A stretch of 64,000 nt of DNA from the NCBI RefSeq assembly GCF_000420945.1, contig NZ_ATVX01000006.1, positions 124,001-188,000 on the forward strand. Reading direction: 5' to 3'. Under the pieces are notes generated by a model, which saw only the letters and a program-made list of their open reading frames with translations, was not told where the DNA came from and searched no databases. Made by a program: the position numbers and the translations under genes. Source of the DNA: Butyrivibrio sp. VCB2006 (GTDB taxonomy: Bacteria > Bacillota > Clostridia > Lachnospirales > Lachnospiraceae). This document shows positions 34,893 through 60,135 of the stretch, piece by piece. Numbering within the stretch: the first letter of the stretch is position 1; every line of letters begins with the position of its first letter.

Positions 34893-35621
34893 TCAAACTC
34901 CTAACTGCTTTAATTCGTCCTCTGTAAGCGGTCTATAATCACCGGGCTCAAGACTTTCATCCAGAACAAGTGGGCCCATGGACAAACGCTTCAGGAAAAG
35001 AACTTCATTTCCAACCGCTTCCATCATTCTCTTAACCTGATGGAATCTGCCTTCATGAATTATCAAATGAACCACTGGTCTGCCTTCCTTGTCGCAGTCT
35101 TTAATTTCAACCTTGGCAGGAAGCGTATAATCAATTTCGCCGTTATCCTTGGTATCGCCGATATTAACCCCTTTTTCCAAAGAAGCTATATCCTTGTCAG
35201 AAAGCTCATGATCAAGATGCACTTCGTAAACCTTGTCCACGTGCTTTTTAGGAGAAAGAAGCCTATGAATAAGTCCTCCGTCGTCAGTTAAAAGAATAAG
35301 GCCTTCCGTATCTATATCAAGGCGCCCTGCCGGACTAAGTCCCTTTACGTTCTCGTCCTGTAGAAGATCCAGGACCGTAGTATTCTTACCATCTGTAGTG
35401 GCAGAAACGACGCCCTGTGGCTTATAAAGCATAAAGTAATGAAATTTACTATATCCAAGAACATTTCCGTCAAAAGATATCTCATCAGTATTTTCATCTA
35501 CATGGATATCAGCTTTGGATACAACAACTCCGTTTACACTGCATCTTCCATTCTTAACATATTCTTTTATCTGCTTACGGGTACCGATATCAAAAAGTCC
35601 CAAAAATTTATCTAGTCTCAA
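34893..35621 (-). CDS. rsuA: 16S rRNA pseudouridine synthase RsuA-like, 242 aa
   Basis: S4 domain (1-60) then catalytic domain with AGRLDIDTEGL (Asp nucleophile). EGRFHQVKRM and PGDYRPLTEDEL match RsuA more closely than RluB/E/F, so 16S position 516 is the likely target. The start is TTG at 35621, with GAGGT 6 nt upstream inside the amidase gene; the two genes overlap by 14 bp. Confidence 0.9.
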   Translation of the reverse strand: MRLDKFLGLFDIGTRKQIKEYVKNGRCSVNGVVVSKADIHVDENTDEISFDGNVLGYSKFHYFMLYKPQGVVSATTDGKNTTVLDLLQDENVKGLSPAGRLDIDTEGLILLTDDGGLIHRLLSPKKHVDKVYEVHLDHELSDKDIASLEKGVNIGDTKDNGEIDYTLPAKVEIKDCDKEGRPVVHLIIHEGRFHQVKRMMEAVGNEVLFLKRLSMGPLVLDESLEPGDYRPLTEDELKQLGV

Positions 35622-36660
35622 TAGCTACCTCATTACTTTGTTTAAATAATTCATAATTGTTATACGCTCTGCAGACAATTCTTGATGAAGTAACGCCTGC
35701 AGGTATATTGATATTAAATGACTGGGTATTCTTGGTCCTATCCCACATCTGCAAGGTGCTGAAGGTTACACCACCATCATAGCTGTAAGAGAAGTAAATA
35801 ATAGGACTCTGAGAATCCTTGGTAGTCATTTCTACAAGAGCATTTCTGCTACCTGAGTCAAAAGCAAGTACTTTTATCTGGCAGGTATCAGGATCTGTAG
35901 AATCATGCCATACCTTATTGGCAGGCTTTTTTACTGATTTGTAAGTATAATTTGTAAAGTTATTGCCATTTACAGATGACTTTAGTTTAAAGTACTTGGC
36001 GACAGCGGTTGCATCAGCAACACCAAGTCTATTAATAAAGTCAGCATCTTTTAAGTACTGAACATCATATGCATGATCAAGATAACAATGCTCAATAATA
36101 TCACAAGGGATTCCCCTTGTAACACACTGTCTGATTATTCCGTAATAGTCATTACCGGAGCTTCCAATCTTAGTCTTTACCCCCTTCTGATAAAGACCGA
36201 GGGCTGCAAGTTCATCGCTTTCAATCAGTCCAAAGGTCTGGCCCTTTTGATAATAGTTTCCAAAAGCAGATGTCCAGACTTCAGATCCATAAAAATTATG
36301 TTCAGAAGAAGCATTAAAATGGATGCTAAATACAAAATCCGCATTAATGCTCTTGGCAAACTTAGCTCTATCCTCAAGAGACACTATTGTATCCGTAGTT
36401 CTGGTAAGATACACAGTAACATTTTCATATTTTTCAAGCTCAGTTTTCATAGCTGATGCTACACGCATTGTCAGCTCTTTCTCAGAAAAACCGTTATACT
36501 GAGCTCCTAAATTCCTATCCCCGGTTCCACCATGCCCGGGATCAATAACTATAATATAGTTCTTGGTCGCTGCCTCAGCACAAATACTGCCACCGCCTAC
36601 CCAAAGAGCACTGCATACTGATAAAAACAATATCATAAGAAAAGACAATACTTTTTTCAT
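35608..36660 (-). CDS. N-acetylmuramoyl-L-alanine amidase (Amidase_3), secreted, about 350 aa
   Basis: Zinc-dependent cell-wall hydrolase. Signal peptide at 1-29 (MKKVLSFLMILFLSV core). The amidase domain carries the zinc ligands in IDPGHGG, the Glu in FSEKELT, IHFNAS, and the catalytic Glu in DIIEHCYL. A C-terminal beta-rich domain of about 100 residues (FSYSYDGGVTF) may bind wall. GAGGGCG before the ATG at 36660 decides the start; the longer frame adds nine codons. Confidence 0.9.
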   Translation of the reverse strand: MKKVLSFLMILFLSVCSALWVGGGSICAEAATKNYIIVIDPGHGGTGDRNLGAQYNGFSEKELTMRVASAMKTELEKYENVTVYLTRTTDTIVSLEDRAKFAKSINADFVFSIHFNASSEHNFYGSEVWTSAFGNYYQKGQTFGLIESDELAALGLYQKGVKTKIGSSGNDYYGIIRQCVTRGIPCDIIEHCYLDHAYDVQYLKDADFINRLGVADATAVAKYFKLKSSVNGNNFTNYTYKSVKKPANKVWHDSTDPDTCQIKVLAFDSGSRNALVEMTTKDSQSPIIYFSYSYDGGVTFSTLQMWDRTKNTQSFNINIPAGVTSSRIVCRAYNNYELFKQSNEVAIETR

Positions 36661-36691
36661 AACGCCCTCACAAAAAATAAAAGTCATTGAA

Positions 36692-36724
36692 TAAAAGTAA
36701 AGCTGCCGCGGTCTGCGACAGCTT
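36692..36724 (-). terminator. Terminator upstream of the amidase gene
   Basis: 10-bp stem AAGCTGCCGC (36700-36709) with GCGACAGCTT (36715-36724), one G-U pair, then a T-rich stretch on the minus strand. It ends transcripts of the coiled-coil gene. Confidence 0.7.
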
Positions 36725-36733
36725 ATAAATCTG

Positions 36734-37432
36734 TTAATTAAGCATATCCAAATTCAAAGCAGCCGGTTCTGGCAATTCACCAGTAGCTTCAGTTGGCATA
36801 TTTGCTGCAACATCTGTCTTCATAACTTCCGGTGGCCTTAAATCTGATCTGTTTGATCTGACAACTTCACTGTACTGTGTCAGAGCTGAAAGAATACTGT
36901 CATTACTCTGGTTAACAGAATTGATCATATTCTCACTGTTCTGTTTGATAGATGCAATTATGTCGTCATTGTTCTTGCTGGTTGCATCGATAGACTGAGA
37001 AATAATGTCCTCTACACCTGCAAGAAGCTGGTCTGTATACTGAACAGCTGCAGCCTTCATATCATTGGCTTCAAGCATTGCTCTGTCAAGAATCTCCTTG
37101 GCCTGGGCAGCTGCCTGAGATACTACCTCATTAGCCTGTGCGTAGGCCTGTTTCATAATCTCGTGTTCGTCAATAAGCTCATTGGTATGAGCTGTGGCTT
37201 CATCAATAAGATTCTGAGCTTTCTGCCTGGCATCATTAAGGATTGCTTCCTTATTGCTGATGATCTTCTGATATCTCTTAATCTCTTCAGGAGTCTTGCT
37301 GCGAAGCTCACGAAGGAGCTCGTCAATCTCCTCTTTATTAACAATAATCTTGGTCTGAGAAAGTGGCTGAGGCTTGCAGTTATCAATATATGTCTCTATT
37401 TCATCAATAAGCTGCTCAATCCTGCTTGTCAT
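36734..37432 (-). CDS. Coiled-coil protein (DivIVA / V-ATPase subunit H-like), 232 aa
   Basis: Long helical protein with heptad-type Ala/Glu/Gln repeats from about 50 to 185, then a flexible Pro-rich tail (ELPEPAALN). Databases often label such clostridial proteins ATPase or V-type H subunit, but no catalytic motif is present. A structural or division-site role like DivIVA is possible. It follows coaD directly (18-bp gap). Confidence 0.6.
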   Translation of the reverse strand: MTSRIEQLIDEIETYIDNCKPQPLSQTKIIVNKEEIDELLRELRSKTPEEIKRYQKIISNKEAILNDARQKAQNLIDEATAHTNELIDEHEIMKQAYAQANEVVSQAAAQAKEILDRAMLEANDMKAAAVQYTDQLLAGVEDIISQSIDATSKNNDDIIASIKQNSENMINSVNQSNDSILSALTQYSEVVRSNRSDLRPPEVMKTDVAANMPTEATGELPEPAALNLDMLN

Positions 37433-48204: not shown

Positions 48205-48390
48205 ATGGCTAAATGTGATATTTGTGGCAAGGGCGTTCATTTCGGAAACAACGTAAGCCATTCTCATAGAAGATCTAATAGAGTTTGGAAGTCAAACGTT
48301 CAGCACGTTGCTTGTAAGGTTAATGGCTCTACTAAGAGAATGCACGTTTGCGCAAGCTGTCTTAGATCAAATAAAGTAGAAAGAGCTTAA
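48205..48390 (+). CDS. rpmB: Ribosomal protein L28, zinc-binding form, 61 aa
   Basis: Large-subunit protein. MAKCDICGKG and the later CASCLRS supply four cysteines, making this the zinc-containing (C+) form. AAGGAGGTG precedes the ATG. Monocistronic, with its own promoter and terminator, divergent from Asp23 as in many Firmicutes. Confidence 0.97.
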   Translation: MAKCDICGKGVHFGNNVSHSHRRSNRVWKSNVQHVACKVNGSTKRMHVCASCLRSNKVERA

Positions 48391-48414: not shown

Positions 48415-48442
48415 ACCACCTGATAATTCAGGTGGTTTTTTT
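48415..48442 (+). terminator. rpmB terminator
   Basis: 9-bp stem ACCACCTGA (48415-48423) and TCAGGTGGT (48428-48436), TAAT loop, followed by seven T's. Confidence 0.9.
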
Positions 48443-48495: not shown

Positions 48496-48912
48496 TCAAA
48501 CAGAAAATCCAAACAAAGCAAGTTTAGATATTATAAGTTCCCTTATTATAATCCCCTCTTTTAATTTATCTTCAGGAGAAATCTTGGAAAGCTGCTCTAT
48601 AGTATATACTTTTTCCTTAAAGCCCTTAGCCTGGTTATCCGGATTCTTGTACTGTGACACTCTTACTTTGGCCCTTAGCTGTTTGTAAATCCTATAATCA
48701 TATTTTTCATTAGTAATATAAAAAAGATGACTTTCAAGAGTAGTATCATAATCAACATCATCTTTTATATATTTGGTTATGATAGTCTTGAATTTAAAAG
48801 GAACCATCTCATTATTAAGGAGCTCGTTATAATCATACCGGGCTCCAAAATAATATCTCTCTATGTCTTGCATGTAATACTTAAAATCGTCTTCGTTAAC
48901 TATATTATTCAT
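48496..48912 (-). CDS. Unknown protein, 138 aa, overlapping the sigma-like gene
   Basis: Not recognised. Acidic and Tyr-rich N-terminus (MNNIVNEDDFKYYM) with helical segments, ending RELIISKLALFGFSV. No membrane segment or metal motif. It overlaps the sigma-like gene by 8 bp and has a poor binding site of its own, so it probably depends on coupling. Its constant partner status here suggests a role with the sigma-like protein, which is inference. Confidence 0.7.
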   Translation of the reverse strand: MNNIVNEDDFKYYMQDIERYYFGARYDYNELLNNEMVPFKFKTIITKYIKDDVDYDTTLESHLFYITNEKYDYRIYKQLRAKVRVSQYKNPDNQAKGFKEKVYTIEQLSKISPEDKLKEGIIIRELIISKLALFGFSV

Positions 48913-49681
48913 TCTGTTTCTTCTTATCTTCGCCGCTGTCCAAATCTTCTATATTGTCACCGCTAAACTTAATAGCGCTTCTAATCTTATCTTCATCCCA
49001 ACCAGTCTCATCCATAAGCTCTTTGACAGAAACTTTTCTTCTAAGATCCTGGGCAAGTTCACTGGCCTTATCGGCAACTTCCTGAACAAGGTCAAGAACC
49101 TTCTTCTCTCCTGCGTCCTCTGCCAAATTATTTTCAATAACTGCCTCCATGGCGTCTAACATCAGTTTGTACAAAAAGCTCTCAACTTCAGAAGGCTCTC
49201 CCACTGCATCCAGCATAGTAACGCCCTTGGTAAGTGCAAAGTTTCCTTCACCGATAAGATCTTCCAAATATACGCCCTGTTCTGTATACATCTTGGCTAC
49301 ATCAACCACAAGGGGAAGATACATTTCAATAAGCTTATTCTGAGCATCCTTGTCTCCCGAAATAGCAGACATTGAAATTGCAGTCTTTTCTCCCTCATTA
49401 TATGTCGGAAGTTCTTTTAAACTTTCAAGATAGGAATTAAGGTAGTTGTGCTCCTCATCTGTAAGCACTTCCTCATCAAAAACAGCCTCTTCGTCCACTC
49501 CGATTTTGTGGCTCTTTAAGTATTCAAATACCATTTCAAACTGCTTGTCATCAAGTTCAAGCTCTGCAAAAGCATCCCTAACCTGCTGGCTTGAGATGAT
49601 ATTTTTATTTTCTCTTGCGGTCCTTGTTACAAGCTTTAAAATTTCCGCAAATTCTTTTTCCTTATTATCAATATTTCCCAT
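48905..49681 (-). CDS. Sigma-70-like protein lacking region 4, 258 aa
   Basis: The N-terminus (about 8-62) resembles region 1.1 of primary sigma factors. A region 1.2 and 2.1/2.2-like stretch follows (about 80-155), with LVVDVAKMYTEQG and DLIGEGNFALTKGV as in core-binding sigma helices. The normal 2.3/2.4 DNA-melting and -10 helix with WWIRQ is missing. A region-3-like helix pair (KVSVKELMDETGWDEDKI) ends near 240, and the protein stops in an acidic tail without region 4. No ribosome binding site is within 12 nt of the ATG. It may bind core RNA polymerase but not a normal promoter. Confidence 0.75.
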   Translation of the reverse strand: MGNIDNKEKEFAEILKLVTRTARENKNIISSQQVRDAFAELELDDKQFEMVFEYLKSHKIGVDEEAVFDEEVLTDEEHNYLNSYLESLKELPTYNEGEKTAISMSAISGDKDAQNKLIEMYLPLVVDVAKMYTEQGVYLEDLIGEGNFALTKGVTMLDAVGEPSEVESFLYKLMLDAMEAVIENNLAEDAGEKKVLDLVQEVADKASELAQDLRRKVSVKELMDETGWDEDKIRSAIKFSGDNIEDLDSGEDKKKQNE

Positions 49682-49711
49682 ATATATTAAACTGTCATAA
49701 ACCTTTCTGTT

Positions 49712-50584
49712 TTAATTAACATGCTGATGCGTAAAAAGATGATCCTGACAATACTCATAGTTACCGTTACACTTTGAGCAGAATCTAAACTCAAGATCAG
49801 GATTGGTTTCTTCAGTTCTTCCGCAAACAGCGCATTTATGTCTTGTTACGCCTCTCGGCATAATCTTGGCATTCTTTTGGAACTCAGTTCTTCTCTTAAC
49901 TTCCTTAGGTTTAAATCTGAACAGTTTTCCAAGCTGCAAATAGAAAAGAAACAGATTCAGAAGCTGTGAACCAATAGCAAAGAAAATACTGTAGTTATGA
50001 TTTATAAGTCCTGATACGCCTTCCCAAACAAGAAGTGCTCCATAGGCAATACCCATGTACTTAACCTTGATAGGAATAATAAACATCAAAAGAACCTGCA
50101 CATTAGGATACAAAATCGCAAAAGCCAAAAATACAATCTGCTGGATGTAGTAAACATTAAAATATGATGATGTGTACAGCATCACCTCTGCAGCCTGAAG
50201 GGGCCAGAAAATGCTATAGATACCATAGGCAGCAAACGCACCTATTATCATCAGTATTATTCCGGAAAAGATAAACAGATTATATCTAAAGGTTCCTATG
50301 GTTCTCTCCATGTTGGAACCTACAAAATAATAGAAAATCAAAGTAATGATAACAAGAAGACTTACAGCGGTTGGCGGTATAATAAGCCATGAAACCAGTC
50401 TCCATACCTGTCCGTGAAGTATTCTCTCAGGATTAAGAGATAAATAATACGGAAGATTAAGGCTGGATGGAGCAAATCCCACAAGCACATATCCAATCGC
50501 ATAAAGAGCTACGATATACATTGAAAGATTTGGAATCGCATACTTTCCAAATTTTCTTTCAAGATCGTTTATAAACTTATTCAT
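49712..50584 (-). CDS. Rhomboid-fold membrane protein, probably inactive, with a C-terminal zinc ribbon, 290 aa
   Basis: Six membrane helices in rhomboid order. SNMERTIGTFRYNLFI matches the helix-2/3 loop of rhomboids. The segment aligned with the catalytic GxSG helix reads IQQIVFLAFAILYP, and helix 6 (GSQLLNLFLF) has no His, so both catalytic residues are missing. After helix 6 a soluble tail carries CAVC, then CSKC, plus later Cys/His (CQDHLFTHQH), fitting a zinc ribbon. GAGG lies 8 nt before the ATG, 12 bp after the sensor-like gene. Confidence 0.75.
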   Translation of the reverse strand: MNKFINDLERKFGKYAIPNLSMYIVALYAIGYVLVGFAPSSLNLPYYLSLNPERILHGQVWRLVSWLIIPPTAVSLLVIITLIFYYFVGSNMERTIGTFRYNLFIFSGIILMIIGAFAAYGIYSIFWPLQAAEVMLYTSSYFNVYYIQQIVFLAFAILYPNVQVLLMFIIPIKVKYMGIAYGALLVWEGVSGLINHNYSIFFAIGSQLLNLFLFYLQLGKLFRFKPKEVKRRTEFQKNAKIMPRGVTRHKCAVCGRTEETNPDLEFRFCSKCNGNYEYCQDHLFTHQHVN

Positions 50585-50596
50585 TAATATACCTCT

Positions 50597-52837
50597 TTAA
50601 ATTTTTTTGAAAACATCTGCTGTCACTGCAATCATAGGGATACTTGCCTTATCCCTATCCTCAAGATTACGAATCTGTCTTGCAGCCTCATAACCTTCGG
50701 TGTTAGGAGCCTGAATATCCATAAGTATAAAATCAAAATAATTCGCAGGTGCAGCCTTAATAATAGCAACAGCCTCTGAGCTGTCAGTAGCAATCTTTAC
50801 TTCAAAACCGCTTTCCTTAAGCAGCCTGGCAGCAGCTACTCTGACATCTTCTATACTGTCAACTATTAGAATTCGCTTACCATAGAAATTATACTTCCCA
50901 ATTGTGTCGATTATGTTTTCAGATGATGAATTTTTCAGATCATTTATAAATTCTCTGAATTTAATATTCTGATTATCGCTTAAATACTGGCCACTTTCAA
51001 CACTGCTGAAGTCATGAATATCATCTATAAGCCATAAGAGATGCTCACAGGATTTGTTTACTCTGTCCAGGAAAGAAGTTGCATTTGGATCATCAACATG
51101 CTCATAGGCAATGTTAACATTTGCAGCAATACCTTCTACAGAGCCTCTCATGTCCTCAGACAATCTAGTCAGGAAAACAGTTTTAGATCTATTAGCATTT
51201 TCCATATCAATTCTTGCAGACTCTTTTTCTTTTAACACCTGAATAGATCTGGACTTATCCCTTACATGGAAAGCGACTATAAGAATAACTATTATGGTAA
51301 CAAGTATAGTAACAATCCAAAGATTATCAATTAACTTGTCAATAAACGAAACTTTATAAAGCTTTTCCGAATATTGATAAGCTAGATTAAGGGCATAATC
51401 CTGCCCCAGAATACTGATGCCCCTGTTAAAGAGCTTTAACAGGCCTTCGTTACCAATCTTAACGCCAAAGCATCTGTTATCACTGTATGAAAGCTGCCTG
51501 AAGGAAAGCTTTCTGTAAGCTCTGTTTTTGAGAAGATCATTGGTTCTAAGGCCGTTAAGGGTTGTACATTTAACACTTCCGTCTGTTACAGCTTTAAGAC
51601 AAGCCTCAGTAGAAGGATAAAAAGATATAGTAGATTCCGGATAATGGGTTTTGACATAGTAATACTGCATTTTATTGTTCTTATTAACTGCAAAATCAGA
51701 GATGGAGCTACTGATATACTTGTTGCTGTAAATAAGGTTTGTTATAGAAGACAGAACCGGGTTGGACAGGTTCATACCATCTTCCTCTGAGTAAAACAAT
51801 CCTCCACCCACGGGAAAAGCTATATCTATAGCTTCATTACCAAGGGCAGTTGTCATATCATCATAATTGTCAAAGCCCGTATATGTTACTTCAAGATTGC
51901 TTATACCCAAGTTCTTAAGAAGCTCCGGAACAAGATCCGTAACAATGCCTTCTGCGCTGCCATCCTTGGAAGTATTACTGTAAGGAAGATAATTGTTAAG
52001 ATATCCAACCTTTAAAGAAGTATTTGTATTAAGCCAATTTTTTTCAGTCTGAGTAAATGCTTTACTGGATAGGCTAACCGCAAAATACTTATTTTTAAGA
52101 AGACTTGTAAAATCAGGTTCCTCTATAAAAAGCTGATTTTGAGCCTCATTTAACTCTTTTAACAGATCAGGTTTATCCTTACTAACACATAAGTAATAAT
52201 CAAGAGAAGCAAAGCTTGTCATGACTTCTGCATGACTTCTGCTGTAAGTGCCATCGGTTTCGCCGGCAATCACGTCCAGTTCTCCCTTGTCAAAAGCTGC
52301 ATAAAGTTCATCATAATCATTAAAGGTAACAATATTAGCATTAACCTTATTTTCATCAAGATATATAACAAGAGAATCAAAAATGTTACTGTTAAGAACA
52401 CCTATAGTTTTATTATTAAGTGTCGATGGCATGGATGTAATCGTGTTATCAGACTCATGCTTAATAAGACTATAGGTTTCTGATCCCATAGGTCTTGCAG
52501 GATAAAGCATAAGATCACTTCTATCCGGTGTATACGCCAGCCCGGCAATTACATCAACCTTGCCTTCAAGAAGCATCTGATAGGCAGATACAAAGTCTGC
52601 ATAAACATACTCATACTCCCAGCCTGTATATTCTGAGATTTTACGATAGTACTCGTAGGCATAACCATTTTTAATGGCACCTTCAGACGCACCTTCTTCA
52701 AAGACCTCGTTCTCATAGTATCCTACTCGCACAGTCTTCTTATTATCACCGGATGCACTTGTAATTTTGGGAAAAGAAATTAAGCTGATTGCCATTGAAA
52801 GCATCAGCAGAAATATAAAGCCAATCCTTTTTTTCAT
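50597..52837 (-). CDS. Degenerate hybrid sensor: two solute-binding domains, dead HisKA-like helix, truncated receiver, 746 aa
   Basis: A signal peptide or first helix (1-28) is followed by two extracellular SBP_bac_3-type domains (about 33-265 and 270-500), a membrane helix (about 505-527), and a HisKA-like dimerisation helix. Where hybrid kinases have SHDIRTP this reads SEDMRGS, so the phosphoacceptor His is Glu. No HATPase domain follows. A receiver-like domain (ILIVDSIEDV, then FILMDIQAP with the Asp) stops at AVTADVFKKI before the conserved Lys. GGAG precedes the ATG. It looks like a ligand-binding sensor without kinase output. Confidence 0.8.
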   Translation of the reverse strand: MKKRIGFIFLLMLSMAISLISFPKITSASGDNKKTVRVGYYENEVFEEGASEGAIKNGYAYEYYRKISEYTGWEYEYVYADFVSAYQMLLEGKVDVIAGLAYTPDRSDLMLYPARPMGSETYSLIKHESDNTITSMPSTLNNKTIGVLNSNIFDSLVIYLDENKVNANIVTFNDYDELYAAFDKGELDVIAGETDGTYSRSHAEVMTSFASLDYYLCVSKDKPDLLKELNEAQNQLFIEEPDFTSLLKNKYFAVSLSSKAFTQTEKNWLNTNTSLKVGYLNNYLPYSNTSKDGSAEGIVTDLVPELLKNLGISNLEVTYTGFDNYDDMTTALGNEAIDIAFPVGGGLFYSEEDGMNLSNPVLSSITNLIYSNKYISSSISDFAVNKNNKMQYYYVKTHYPESTISFYPSTEACLKAVTDGSVKCTTLNGLRTNDLLKNRAYRKLSFRQLSYSDNRCFGVKIGNEGLLKLFNRGISILGQDYALNLAYQYSEKLYKVSFIDKLIDNLWIVTILVTIIVILIVAFHVRDKSRSIQVLKEKESARIDMENANRSKTVFLTRLSEDMRGSVEGIAANVNIAYEHVDDPNATSFLDRVNKSCEHLLWLIDDIHDFSSVESGQYLSDNQNIKFREFINDLKNSSSENIIDTIGKYNFYGKRILIVDSIEDVRVAAARLLKESGFEVKIATDSSEAVAIIKAAPANYFDFILMDIQAPNTEGYEAARQIRNLEDRDKASIPMIAVTADVFKKI

Positions 52838-52944
52838 GAAATACTCCGCCCCATAAATTTCATATAAATTTATAATAACACAAAAGAAGACGCTTATGTC
52901 CTTTATTTTCGCATTCTTTTATATTTTACGCAATCTATTTTTAA

Positions 52945-52973
52945 TTGATTTTTAAGATTCTCTGCATTATAAT
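52945..52973 (+). promoter_or_regulatory. Promoter of the activase-like gene
   Basis: TTGATT (52945-52950), 17 bp, perfect TATAAT (52968-52973). The leader of about 70 nt ends in GAGGTG before the ATG. Confidence 0.75.
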
Positions 52974-53047
52974 CATAGAGATTGTCTTTTTACGACATAT
53001 TATAGAAGAAAAGCAATCAAAAAGTATTCATGAGGTGATTTTTTATA

Positions 53048-57302: not shown

Positions 57303-57331
57303 AAAAGTGGCCTTATGGCCACTTTTCTTTT
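57303..57331. terminator. Bidirectional terminator between convergent genes
   Basis: Perfect 10-bp stem AAAAGTGGCC (57303-57312) and GGCCACTTTT (57317-57326), TTAT loop, T-rich on the plus strand (CTTTTTA) and on the minus strand (CTTTTTATA). Confidence 0.9.
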
Positions 57332-60135
57332 TATCTGGAATGTCTACGATGAGATCTTCTGATTCTCCAGAGGTTTATATAACAAATAAGTGCAAGTACC
57401 AGTGCAACGAGTATCACAATGATAAGCTGGAGTACTAGTTTATTAACATTTACCGCTTCGTAAGCTATAGAATACTCAGAGAACTTGTCTGTTCGGAAAG
57501 TGATCGTATCCGGATTATAATCAAGGTCTCTTAGGATATCTACTGTACCGTTGTGGTTACGAAGAATACAGTATTCTCTTCCATTCTTTTTGTATTCTTC
57601 AGGAATAGGAAGAGTTACAAGAAGCTCTGCTCCTGTTCTTGTTAATACTTCGCTATTACCATTTTCTGATTTCATAATAAAGAAATCAAAGTAACAAAGC
57701 GGCTTATAGCCTATCTTGGACTGCATAAGTTTCTTGTTCTTGGCATCAACAGTAGCAGTATTATCTGTAATACTAACATTAAAGAGAATTGGATTTCCGC
57801 TAAGTACTGCAATCTTCTCATCATCAGAAAGTGATGCTGAAACAACAGTCTCAAAGTTAATAAGGGATGGATTATCGTAGTAAAGTCCCTGTGTGGTTTC
57901 CTGTGTATAAGAAGCAAAGGTATTATTTACAGTAACTTGAAGAGTACCTATCTCGTATGCTTCTTTTAACAGCGCCATCTCAGCATTATCATTAATGAGC
58001 TTTCTAACCTGAGCATCATCAAGTCCGTATTTAGCCATAATACTGTTTGACGGAGGCTCGATCTCACCATCAATTACAGCAGGTGTTTCTTCTAGAGGAA
58101 CAAAAGTATCTTCAATATATGTTTCCCCATCCAGTTCTTCTATTTCTTCCTTAGCTTCTTCTTTAACAACATTCTGTTCAGGAAGTGCACCCTGATTGGC
58201 TGTATCTTCATTATATTCTGTCTTTTTAGTCTCCTGCTTTTTGGGAGCTACCGACTGCTGCTTAGAAGTATTATTCTGCTTGGCTGGAGCAGTCTGAATC
58301 TTTTCAAAGGTAGCTGTTATTGAATGCCCCTGGCCAATCTTGTTAAAGGTATAACTTCCTGCCTGTCCAATGTTCTTTCCATCTACTGTAACATTCTTTA
58401 CCGTATAGCCACTATTAGGAACGATCTGATAAGTTACACTTCCGCCTTCAGCCACTACATATTCACCGCTTGGGACTATTGCACCACCCTCATTGGTAAT
58501 TCCGGATACAAGCTTATAGGTCTTGGCTTCTTTCTTTCTAAAGCTGGCAGTAATATTCAAATCATTTTCAATGTTATTTATAACATATTCGTCATTATAA
58601 GAAACTATCTGGCCATTTATTATCCAGCCTGCAAATTCGTAGCCATCATATGCTCTTTGCTTAATTACAACCTTTTTCCCCTTATCATATTTACCTGCAC
58701 CTTCGTATGTACCAGTATCCTGAGGTGTAACACCAACATAAACGTTGTACTGATTACGAACAAAAACTGCAGTGATATTTCTATCAGAGGTTACATTGTT
58801 AAGCTGGATTGAACTAGATGTGCTAAGAGTCTTATTATTTTCTACAAATTCCTTAAAAGCAAATCCTGACTTTGCCTTGGCAGTAATTGTAACTGCACCG
58901 CCGCTCTGGATTGTACAACTGTCTGTAACAGTTCCACCATCTGAATTATTTACGATTGTTTTGATATAGCAGGTAGTTCTATTAAACTTAGCAACAATCT
59001 TCCTGTCTGAAGTGATGTTGGTCAGATCAAAAGCAGGAGATGTAGAAATCAGATTTGAGCCCTCATACCAGCCGCTAAAACTAAAGTTATTATTTGGTGA
59101 AGCAGATACTCTTACAGATCCGCCATTTCTTACCGCACCACCACCGGCAACCGCACCTGCTCCTACAGGATCAGCAGATACGCTAACCATATGATCAACT
59201 TGCTGAAGATTTACTATCGCGCTTGCATAATACCTGGAGTCCTGCTTGGATGTTGCAATTACACCTATTGTAGAGGATGTTTCACTTGCATCAACTTTAA
59301 GGATTCCATCTGAACTAATACTTGTTTTATTTGTATTATTTCCTGTAATTGACCAGTTTACTTTAGAATCATAATTGTTACCGCCGGTAACTTTAGCTGT
59401 AAATTGGTATGATTTTCCGCAAGGCAGCGTAATGTTTGAAGGAATTATCTCTACGCTTGTAATATACGGAGCATTCTTTTTAATGGTCATAGTAACAGTA
59501 ACTTTAACCCTGTGATGCTGCCTTATATCATCACCTGAATAAAAAACGTAATAAGCGGAATACTCACCTTCAGGAAGATCTGTATATGCAGTTATATAAA
59601 ATGGAACCTGTGAACCGGGAACTGTATTAAGATCGCCACCGGGCGCTATCTCAAGTTCAAAGGCTGTAGATGGATCATACTCATCCCAGGTAAGGAAGAA
59701 TGCATTATCACCTGTGTTGACAATACTGAATCTTTGGTAATCAACATAATCATTCTGGTATACTGTTCCAAATTTAAGATTCGGAGTGTAACAGGTAAGA
59801 TCGTAATCAAAAGGATCAGGTTCAGAACTCTGCTGTGGAGTATCAGTATTCTCTGTTCCATCTGATGAGCCACTATCGCCATTATTGTTATTCACATCAG
59901 GCTCCTGAGGTTCTTCCAGCGCAGGATCCGGCTCTACATACTGTTCCATAGAATATTCGTCGATTTGAAAATCTGAACTATTATAGCTTTCCCCTTCATC
60001 AGCCTCGACTAAAAGTAAAATACCGCCATTATCTCTAGCATATACCACGCACAACTGAAGAGTACAAACAGCTGTAAGAAGCAGGCAAATGGCTAAAACA
60101 ATGGCGTTTACCCTAACAAAGAAATTCTTTTTCAT
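57331..60135 (-). CDS. Membrane-anchored surface protein with InlB-type B-repeats, 934 aa
   Basis: Signal peptide (about 1-34), an acidic low-complexity linker (45-108), an Ig/ASPM-like beta domain (about 110-225) and a Big_2-like domain (about 230-320). Four divergent InlB-type B-repeats follow (about 325-620), recognised by recurring GWYEG/AGWII-type aromatic cores and ITSDRxIxAxF strands. Then a Lys/Gln-rich linker, a C-terminal domain, one membrane helix (about 895-915) and the basic tail RIRRSHRRHSR. No LPxTG sortase motif. Likely adhesion or surface interaction; the ligand is unknown. Confidence 0.85.
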   Translation of the reverse strand: MKKNFFVRVNAIVLAICLLLTAVCTLQLCVVYARDNGGILLLVEADEGESYNSSDFQIDEYSMEQYVEPDPALEEPQEPDVNNNNGDSGSSDGTENTDTPQQSSEPDPFDYDLTCYTPNLKFGTVYQNDYVDYQRFSIVNTGDNAFFLTWDEYDPSTAFELEIAPGGDLNTVPGSQVPFYITAYTDLPEGEYSAYYVFYSGDDIRQHHRVKVTVTMTIKKNAPYITSVEIIPSNITLPCGKSYQFTAKVTGGNNYDSKVNWSITGNNTNKTSISSDGILKVDASETSSTIGVIATSKQDSRYYASAIVNLQQVDHMVSVSADPVGAGAVAGGGAVRNGGSVRVSASPNNNFSFSGWYEGSNLISTSPAFDLTNITSDRKIVAKFNRTTCYIKTIVNNSDGGTVTDSCTIQSGGAVTITAKAKSGFAFKEFVENNKTLSTSSSIQLNNVTSDRNITAVFVRNQYNVYVGVTPQDTGTYEGAGKYDKGKKVVIKQRAYDGYEFAGWIINGQIVSYNDEYVINNIENDLNITASFRKKEAKTYKLVSGITNEGGAIVPSGEYVVAEGGSVTYQIVPNSGYTVKNVTVDGKNIGQAGSYTFNKIGQGHSITATFEKIQTAPAKQNNTSKQQSVAPKKQETKKTEYNEDTANQGALPEQNVVKEEAKEEIEELDGETYIEDTFVPLEETPAVIDGEIEPPSNSIMAKYGLDDAQVRKLINDNAEMALLKEAYEIGTLQVTVNNTFASYTQETTQGLYYDNPSLINFETVVSASLSDDEKIAVLSGNPILFNVSITDNTATVDAKNKKLMQSKIGYKPLCYFDFFIMKSENGNSEVLTRTGAELLVTLPIPEEYKKNGREYCILRNHNGTVDILRDLDYNPDTITFRTDKFSEYSIAYEAVNVNKLVLQLIIVILVALVLALICYINLWRIRRSHRRHSR

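Follow-up and report, generated by a model that had tools for sequence, protein, structure and literature searches.

The closest described relatives of the genes analysed here belong to separate systems. RsoA-SigO is a split sigma of Bacillus subtilis, the PhyR-NepR-EcfG system contains a sigma-like protein that is unable to initiate, and the Derlins are rhomboid pseudoproteases in which the catalytic dyad is missing. A bacterial precedent for a rhomboid acting as an adaptor is YqgP of B. subtilis, which serves FtsH in this role independently of catalysis (PMC7231995). Proteins that recall each of these systems are encoded side by side in Butyrivibrio sp. VCB2006, within a stretch of 64,000 nt (NZ_ATVX01000006.1, positions 124,001 to 188,000) that is referred to below as the window. 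Four minus-strand genes, designated SENS, RHOM, SIG and small, encode a sensor-like protein, a rhomboid-fold protein, a sigma remnant and a small partner, and the conserved side-by-side arrangement of RHOM, SIG and usually small suggests a form of membrane-linked RNA polymerase control that is not yet described. A published description of a RHOM-SIG-small module was not found in the open-licence PMC literature, although one may exist elsewhere, and an inhibitor of RNA polymerase that derives from a sigma factor and is linked to a rhomboid pseudoprotease, as SIG would be on one reading, is not known to us from any other case.

The proteins can be compared with the described systems as follows. 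SIG is collinear with group 1 sigma factors (SigA/RpoD) from region 1.1 to region 3.1, but lacks the −10 melting tryptophans and regions 3.2 and 4, is strongly acidic and carries the changes Q406G and L402E. It resembles RsoA-SigO as a sigma protein cut to the region 2 part, but belongs to a module without a region 4 partner and has lost the melting residues. Unlike the sigma-like protein of PhyR-NepR-EcfG, SIG has no fused receiver, is apparently derived from SigA and has no recognised NepR-like partner. RHOM is like Derlins and other rhomboid pseudoproteases in its predicted fold, its W-R pair and its missing dyad, and differs from both Derlins and YqgP in a C-terminal tail with eight putative ligands and, in one clade, a sigma-like neighbour gene. 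It also differs from Derlins in being bacterial, usually with one strong match per genome, and in that it is not known to have a client. The small protein is predicted to share, over its whole length, the fold of the FAD_binding_5 domain of molybdenum hydroxylases (xanthine dehydrogenase family), but the pyrophosphate-binding glycine loops are missing, the Pfam model does not detect it and no molybdenum or iron-sulphur partner genes were seen beside it. SENS has the domain order of SBP_bac_3 hybrid histidine kinases, but lacks the phospho-acceptor histidine and the HATPase domain, and its receiver is clipped before the conserved lysine.

The tight packing of the four genes described in an earlier note on this DNA, with gaps of 12 bp between SENS and RHOM and 30 bp between RHOM and SIG and an 8-bp overlap of SIG and small, is borne out by the coordinates of the open reading frames (ORFs). 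The losses listed in that note, namely those of His and ATPase from the sensor, Ser and His from the rhomboid and regions 2.4 and 4 from the sigma-like protein, recur in the alignments and profile searches presented below. The four genes and their parts are listed here.

50597..52837, minus strand: SENS, ORF of 746 aa; two SBP_bac_3 stretches, a transmembrane (TM) segment, a degenerate HisKA and a clipped receiver
50990..51184, minus strand: HisKA remnant of SENS, aa 552-616, lacking the phospho-acceptor His (E 0.0014, under cut-off; alignments)
50615..50872, minus strand: clipped receiver of SENS, aa 656-741 (Pfam Response_reg, E 4.2e-12, profile positions 1-79 of 111)
49712..50584, minus strand: RHOM, ORF of 290 aa; predicted rhomboid-superfamily pseudoprotease (AF2 pLDDT 90.8)
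49715..49840, minus strand: C-terminal tail of RHOM, aa 249-290; putative metal-ligand pattern C251, C254, C269, C272, C279, H282, H286, H288
48905..49681, minus strand: SIG, ORF of 258 aa; apparently SigA-derived, regions 1.1 to 3.1 only
49454..49633, minus strand: region 1.1-like segment of SIG, aa 17-76 (Pfam Sigma70_r1_1, E 0.0017, under cut-off)
49232..49288, minus strand: region 2.1/2.2 core-binding segment of SIG, Y132-L150, with EDLIGEGN (sequence alignment)
48496..48912, minus strand: small, ORF of 138 aa; predicted fold of the molybdenum-hydroxylase FAD-binding domain (AF2 pLDDT 92.4)
48730..48741, minus strand: TLES of small, aa 58-61, at the place of the T-x-G-G FAD loop (hhalign register and conserved columns)

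Conservation and distribution of RHOM, SIG and small

Gene order and distribution were examined in 80 named loci, the best of at least 565 relative-encoding stretches from 84,980 species genomes, and in genome samples covering 61 members of the same genus, 120 genera of the family (119 besides its own) and 291 members of the class. Among the matches listed, the closest relatives with names were Butyrivibrio. RHOM lay directly upstream of SIG in 76 of the 77 named loci with more than 1 kb of upstream sequence, and in two loci with too little room (L253 and L272) the end of RHOM was visible at this position. Of the 79 named loci with enough downstream sequence, 78 had the small gene within 400 bp after SIG, and in L271 it was 950 bp off. 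Within the genus, RHOM adjoined SIG upstream and on the same strand in all 38 loci read, which represent 38 of the 51 SIG-bearing genomes. In other genera, RHOM was likewise adjacent on the same strand in 16/16 loci where SIG is complete, and in a 17th (L044) a SIG cut by the contig end lay beside RHOM.

When SIG linkage was mapped as a label on a RHOM tree of 74 rows, four changes were required, compared with a mean of 24.9 for shuffled labels, and none of 500 shuffles gave a value as low. Comparison with RGIG2449 gave dN/dS values of 0.03-0.13 for all four genes, at high dS (1.4-2.8), and the closer pair L202-L203 gave 0.01-0.10 at dS 0.19-0.36; in some further pairs dS was saturated and no ratio was obtained. 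These ratios indicate purifying selection on all four genes. Taken together, RHOM-SIG adjacency across genera, clustering on the tree and low dN/dS amount to more than chance, and RHOM-SIG-small is well supported as a gene module. Of the four-gene order that the earlier note had treated as one system, this is the part that held; the sensor did not, a SENS-like gene being present upstream of RHOM in just 15 of the 80 named loci, all titled Butyrivibrio, even though 67 of the 80 have more than 2.3 kb in this direction. The cassette is a conserved core of RHOM and SIG, usually with small, to which SENS is a recent addition.

The SIG clade was detected in 51 of the 61 same-genus genomes (E ≤ 8.3e-41), and each of the ten genomes without it is less than 90% complete. 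Seventeen of the 119 other genera of the family contain SIG, whole or cut by a contig end, and one more (G147) contains it in two pieces. These pieces lie beside RHOM on contig C3 of G147, at ∼35474-37075, and may represent a recent loss. Across the class, SIG was found in 6 of 291 genomes, every one from the same family (E < 1e-90); E values in this search jump from 1e-97 to 1e-33, and from 1e-33 on the open frames have the length of RpoD. RHOM is far wider in distribution than the module, being present in 113 of the 120 sampled genera of the family and, at E 0.001, in 68 of the 291 class genomes, although the 68 include five weak matches (E 1e-7 to 1e-4), possibly to true rhomboids. The small gene was found in 13 of the 120 genera, and all 13 also have a RHOM-linked SIG. 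A gene encoding FIST and GGDEF domains follows SIG in the same-genus genome G041 (L069:5966-7726).

The SIG, RHOM and small proteins

The best PDB matches of SIG are SigA proteins, and positions 4-239 of the SIG profile align with SigA chain 7ckq_F from region 1.1 to region 3.1, consistent with a protein that keeps regions 1.1-2.2 and 3.1 of SigA. No Sigma70_r4 match was obtained for SIG, the SigA profile match stops at region 3.1, and the lengths of the SIG proteins are 243-272 aa; the last tail residues of two SIG rows were aligned with the RpoD end by MAFFT, which is taken as an alignment artefact. Residues were counted in 54 distinct sequences after E. coli numbering had been placed on the RpoD of the same genome. 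The core-binding equivalents D403, L404, G408 and N409 are retained in 54/54 sequences and E407 in 53/54; E145 and N147 of the window SIG correspond to E407 and N409. By contrast, the promoter-melting and −10 residues W433, W434, Q437 and T440 are retained in none of the 54, and Y430 in three, so that the aromatic residues of regions 2.3/2.4 are gone. The mean charge of the segment from region 2.3 to 3.0 is −7.3 in SIG as opposed to +4 in RpoD, and the window SIG carries a charge of −31 over the whole protein.

The SIG sequences form one clade (support 96/94). Further sigma remnants, from 12 loci (L050-L061), are more divergent (clade B); in a tree that includes four RpoD rows they come out as paraphyletic to RpoD and SIG. 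In the 16 clade B proteins W433 and W434 are likewise lost and Q406 is retained in 15, and no RHOM was found within the available flanks of these loci, which reach up to 1.5 kb. The C termini of the clade B proteins of L050, L051, L058 and L060 are His- or His/Cys-rich tails that look metal-binding.

RHOM is predicted to have a rhomboid/Derlin fold. In VIA-align comparisons spanning residues 16-222, in which helical models may score ∼13 from a common arrangement, the RHOM model matched GlpG (6pjp_A) with Z 12.4 over 164 aa at 3.8 Å, chain W of a human ERAD complex (7y4w_W) with Z 12.4 and Derlin-1 (7czb_A) with Z 12.2; after the rhomboid, Derlin and iRhom rows, unrelated chains start at Z 6.0. 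Foldseek by itself was weak (best E 0.44), and a profile comparison of RHOM with GlpG 2nr9 gave E 0.00098. Pfam Rhomboid matches 16 of 74 RHOM members at E 0.1 (best 3.7e-7) and DER1 matches six (best 8.1e-6), neither of them detecting the RHOM protein of the window. Five columns are invariant in all 74 sequences, W61, R62, E93, G97 and P171, of which W61 and R62 form the W-R pair in the first loop that is a Derlin motif. A second Derlin motif, GxxxG in TM6, is not the pattern of RHOM, where TM6 mostly reads S207-L-L-N210-x-x-x-F214.

The catalytic positions of RHOM were assigned by motif and helix, so that their mapping is inferred. At position 207, that of the TM6 catalytic histidine, none of the 74 sequences has His (Ser in 50, Gln in 11, Ala in seven, Val in three and Pro in three). 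The candidate sites of the TM4 serine are occupied by N143 and I150 in the window protein, and in the family by Ser in 50 of 74 sequences at 143 and in 58 of 74 at 150. RHOM therefore appears to lack the catalytic dyad of an active rhomboid protease, a GxSG serine in TM4 and a histidine in TM6. In another family, RHOM overlaps a response regulator gene (Response_reg and Trans_reg_C) by a few bases (L177:7084-8558).

Fifteen of the 28 columns that are invariant in 26 RHOM sequences sit within the last 42 residues. All eight candidate ligands of this tail are invariant in the 26 sequences, and in a set of 34 tails seven are invariant and the eighth is present in at least 90%. Tails from other families of the class are 44-57% identical to that of the window, and class relatives without a tail, of about 229-241 aa, occur in L143-L145, L147, L151 and L158. 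The ligand spacing resembles AN1; zf-AN1 matched seven of 34 tails, all weakly (best E 2.8). A PDB profile search with the tail returned eL43 ribosomal, zinc-finger and other small proteins, all at E ≥ 0.12. CsfB binds zinc, and its model was considered for the tail but gained no support: Gin/CsfB (PF10764) matched weakly at E 0.1 in seven of 60 genomes and above the cut-off in none, and no listed place corresponds to RHOM. CsfB is described in PMC4383634 as an anti-sigma that binds sigma region 2.

The small protein, which the earlier note left unassigned, gave neither a significant match in Pfam nor a match to PDB sequences. In VIA-align its model reached Z 12.4 against 1t3q_C (124 aa, 3.3 Å), and 71 of 876 chains scored Z ≥ 8; Foldseek ranked molybdenum-hydroxylase FAD subunits at the top (4zoh_B, E 7e-4, TMq 0.63). 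Comparison with 25 FAD subunits of the family by hhalign gave E 0.0021 for A3, where 107 columns are collinear, and E 0.0066 for A5, at low probabilities of 5.7 and 13.4%, and three other profile comparisons gave E 0.15, 0.16 and 0.34. Pfam FAD_binding_5 (PF00941) had no match in the same genome at E 0.001 and none among 41 small members at E 1. The first GG loop precedes the sequence-aligned part of small. On the basis of the structure match, the collinearity and an E value better than those of the three other comparisons, small is predicted to be a FAD-domain fold from which both FAD loops are gone.

SENS and the surrounding sequence

SENS keeps a C-terminally clipped receiver that was absent from the earlier note, and no HATPase match was obtained in it at E 1. 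Relative to RGIG2449 (L193), at high dS, dN/dS was 0.126 for SENS overall, with 0.092 in the sensor part, 0.184 in the remnant of HisKA and 0.165 in the receiver; in the pair L202-L203 the value was 0.093. Among the 15 SENS-like homologues, that of L205 has both the His and HATPase, those of L197 and L198 have HATPase without the His, and twelve are without HATPase; the receiver Asp is replaced by Asn in six and the receiver is missing from L196. At this one site in Butyrivibrio, the forms range by degrees from a hybrid histidine kinase that looks intact to sensors with a dead kinase, the truncated ones being under purifying selection. The kinase core of SENS, a hybrid histidine kinase, has decayed stepwise, and SENS is a retained kinase-dead sensor outside the conserved core rather than a pseudogene.

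Upstream of SENS (52838-53047, minus strand) no sigma-70-like promoter was called, and Rfam and tRNA scans of the window found nothing. A further feature lies beyond the cassette.

48415..48436, called on both strands: terminator-like hairpin of nine pairs, between the cassette and a plus-strand ORF at 48205-48390

Elsewhere in the window, 57331-60135 encodes a repeat protein of 934 aa that contains InlB B-repeat and Big_2 domains. PADLOC returned just the MzaA sigma part and a weak SduA match to the receiver, and a reading of the locus as a defence system was therefore rejected.

Possible mechanisms and significance

Our preferred reading, held tentatively and at somewhat less than an even chance, is that RHOM and SIG, usually with small, form a unit in which an initiation-incompetent SIG docks on RNA polymerase under the control of RHOM and small. 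Gene order, predicted folds, lost motifs and purifying selection are observed, and from them we infer polymerase binding, contacts of RHOM with SIG and of SIG with small, the topology and metal of the tail, the signal and the direction of regulation. SIG would probably dock on the β′ clamp helices of core RNA polymerase via the retained region 2.1/2.2, with region 1.1 facing the DNA channel, and, as it can neither recognise nor melt promoters, would act as a competitor of true sigma factors or keep the polymerase inactive. The Derlin-like RHOM would probably tether or release SIG, or pass SIG or a membrane client to a protease, upon a membrane or metal signal, and its putative metal-binding tail is probably cytosolic. 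The small protein, translated in overlap with SIG, would probably bind SIG directly as a FAD-less scaffold, and in some Butyrivibrio a kinase-less ligand sensor has been added upstream. A more specific route made up of retired enzymes, in which the pseudoprotease acts as sensor or binding partner of a membrane client and as a gate for an initiation-dead SIG in the polymerase clamp and DNA channel, with a FAD-less partner, is unlikely.

Several observations weigh against our preferred reading, and some of them favour the view that the adjacency is that of a housekeeping gene string, in which RHOM would be a quality-control adaptor like Derlin or YqgP and the duties of SIG and small would be unrelated. 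RHOM occurs almost throughout the sampled family and extends beyond the module, and a RHOM-linked SIG occurs in 18 of the 119 other genera, RHOM itself being without an adjacent SIG in most; a RHOM function independent of this SIG therefore exists. L237, the sole named exception with room, encodes SIG and small with no RHOM match in the 1.8 kb upstream, and the SIG beside RHOM in G147 is split in two. The small gene is present in 32 of the 38 same-genus loci and missing from six, and was seen in 11 of 17 other-genus loci. Downstream of the unit in G140 come genes for PreP (M16C), DUF4349, Era, RecO and a tRNA synthetase of class II, which we take to be GlyRS; the PreP proteins of L076, L082 and L084 form one BLAST cluster, and further loci have frames there that are similar in size, which is the only property compared. 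Since the unit runs into this string in at least some genera, its conservation may partly reflect the string. Set against this are the Butyrivibrio loci, where the genes downstream of the module vary while RHOM, SIG and small remain together, and the finding that, L237 apart, RHOM adjoins SIG of this clade at all loci read that have enough sequence. A gene string as the explanation is judged rather unlikely, though it is the least improbable of the alternatives.

Q406G is present in 54/54 SIG sequences and L402E in 53/54, and with these changes RNA polymerase binding could be lost, which also counts against docking. Another sigma in the same genome, presumably FliA/SigD-like, reads DDLVGYG at the place of EDLIGEGN in SIG, and a G at 406 is therefore compatible with a sigma; the conserved core-binding residues favour docking, and Q406G and L402E make it less certain. 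The same two altered positions, together with the lost melting residues and the retained region 2.1/2.2, would fit a sigma decoy that binds an anti-sigma instead of RNA polymerase, and whose release by RHOM or small frees a true sigma. Sigma mimicry of this type is known for PhyR-NepR (PMC4814048 and PMC5830050), but PhyR combines a receiver and a sigma domain in one protein and SIG has no receiver; moreover, the conserved unit contains no recognised anti-sigma gene and anti-sigma binding would have no obvious need of the retained region 1.1, and a decoy is regarded as rather improbable. The restriction of SIG to regions 1.1-3.1 would also suit one half of a split sigma that is completed by a region 4 protein encoded elsewhere. 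This is considered very improbable, given that the melting residues W433 and W434, which a functional region 2 should have, are missing from all 54 sequences and that the module contains no region 4 protein, small being ruled out as such a partner by its predicted FAD-domain fold. There remains the proposal of the earlier note that all four genes, SENS included, form one pathway from a ligand sensor to the polymerase. The 12-bp gap between SENS and RHOM and the purifying selection on SENS, including the degenerate HisKA and the receiver, speak for it, but the sensor is found in 15/80 named loci only, and the series of one intact-looking homologue, two with ATPase and twelve without fits a decaying neighbour. 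The proposal is set aside as improbable; with all 15 loci in Butyrivibrio and one apparently intact hybrid kinase among them, a sensor-to-RNA-polymerase pathway would therefore be at most a Butyrivibrio elaboration.

The family that hosts the module is abundant in the gut and rumen, and RHOM-SIG-small is found in many of its species. If our preferred reading is true, a sigma remnant with a docking face and without a melting face would lend itself naturally to dominant-negative control of transcription. For the rhomboid-pseudoprotease field, a Derlin-like pseudoprotease that is encoded next to a conserved partner gene in bacteria would be a tractable bacterial system. More generally, the locus presents kinase, protease, sigma and flavodomain scaffolds that appear to have been kept by selection after the loss of activity.

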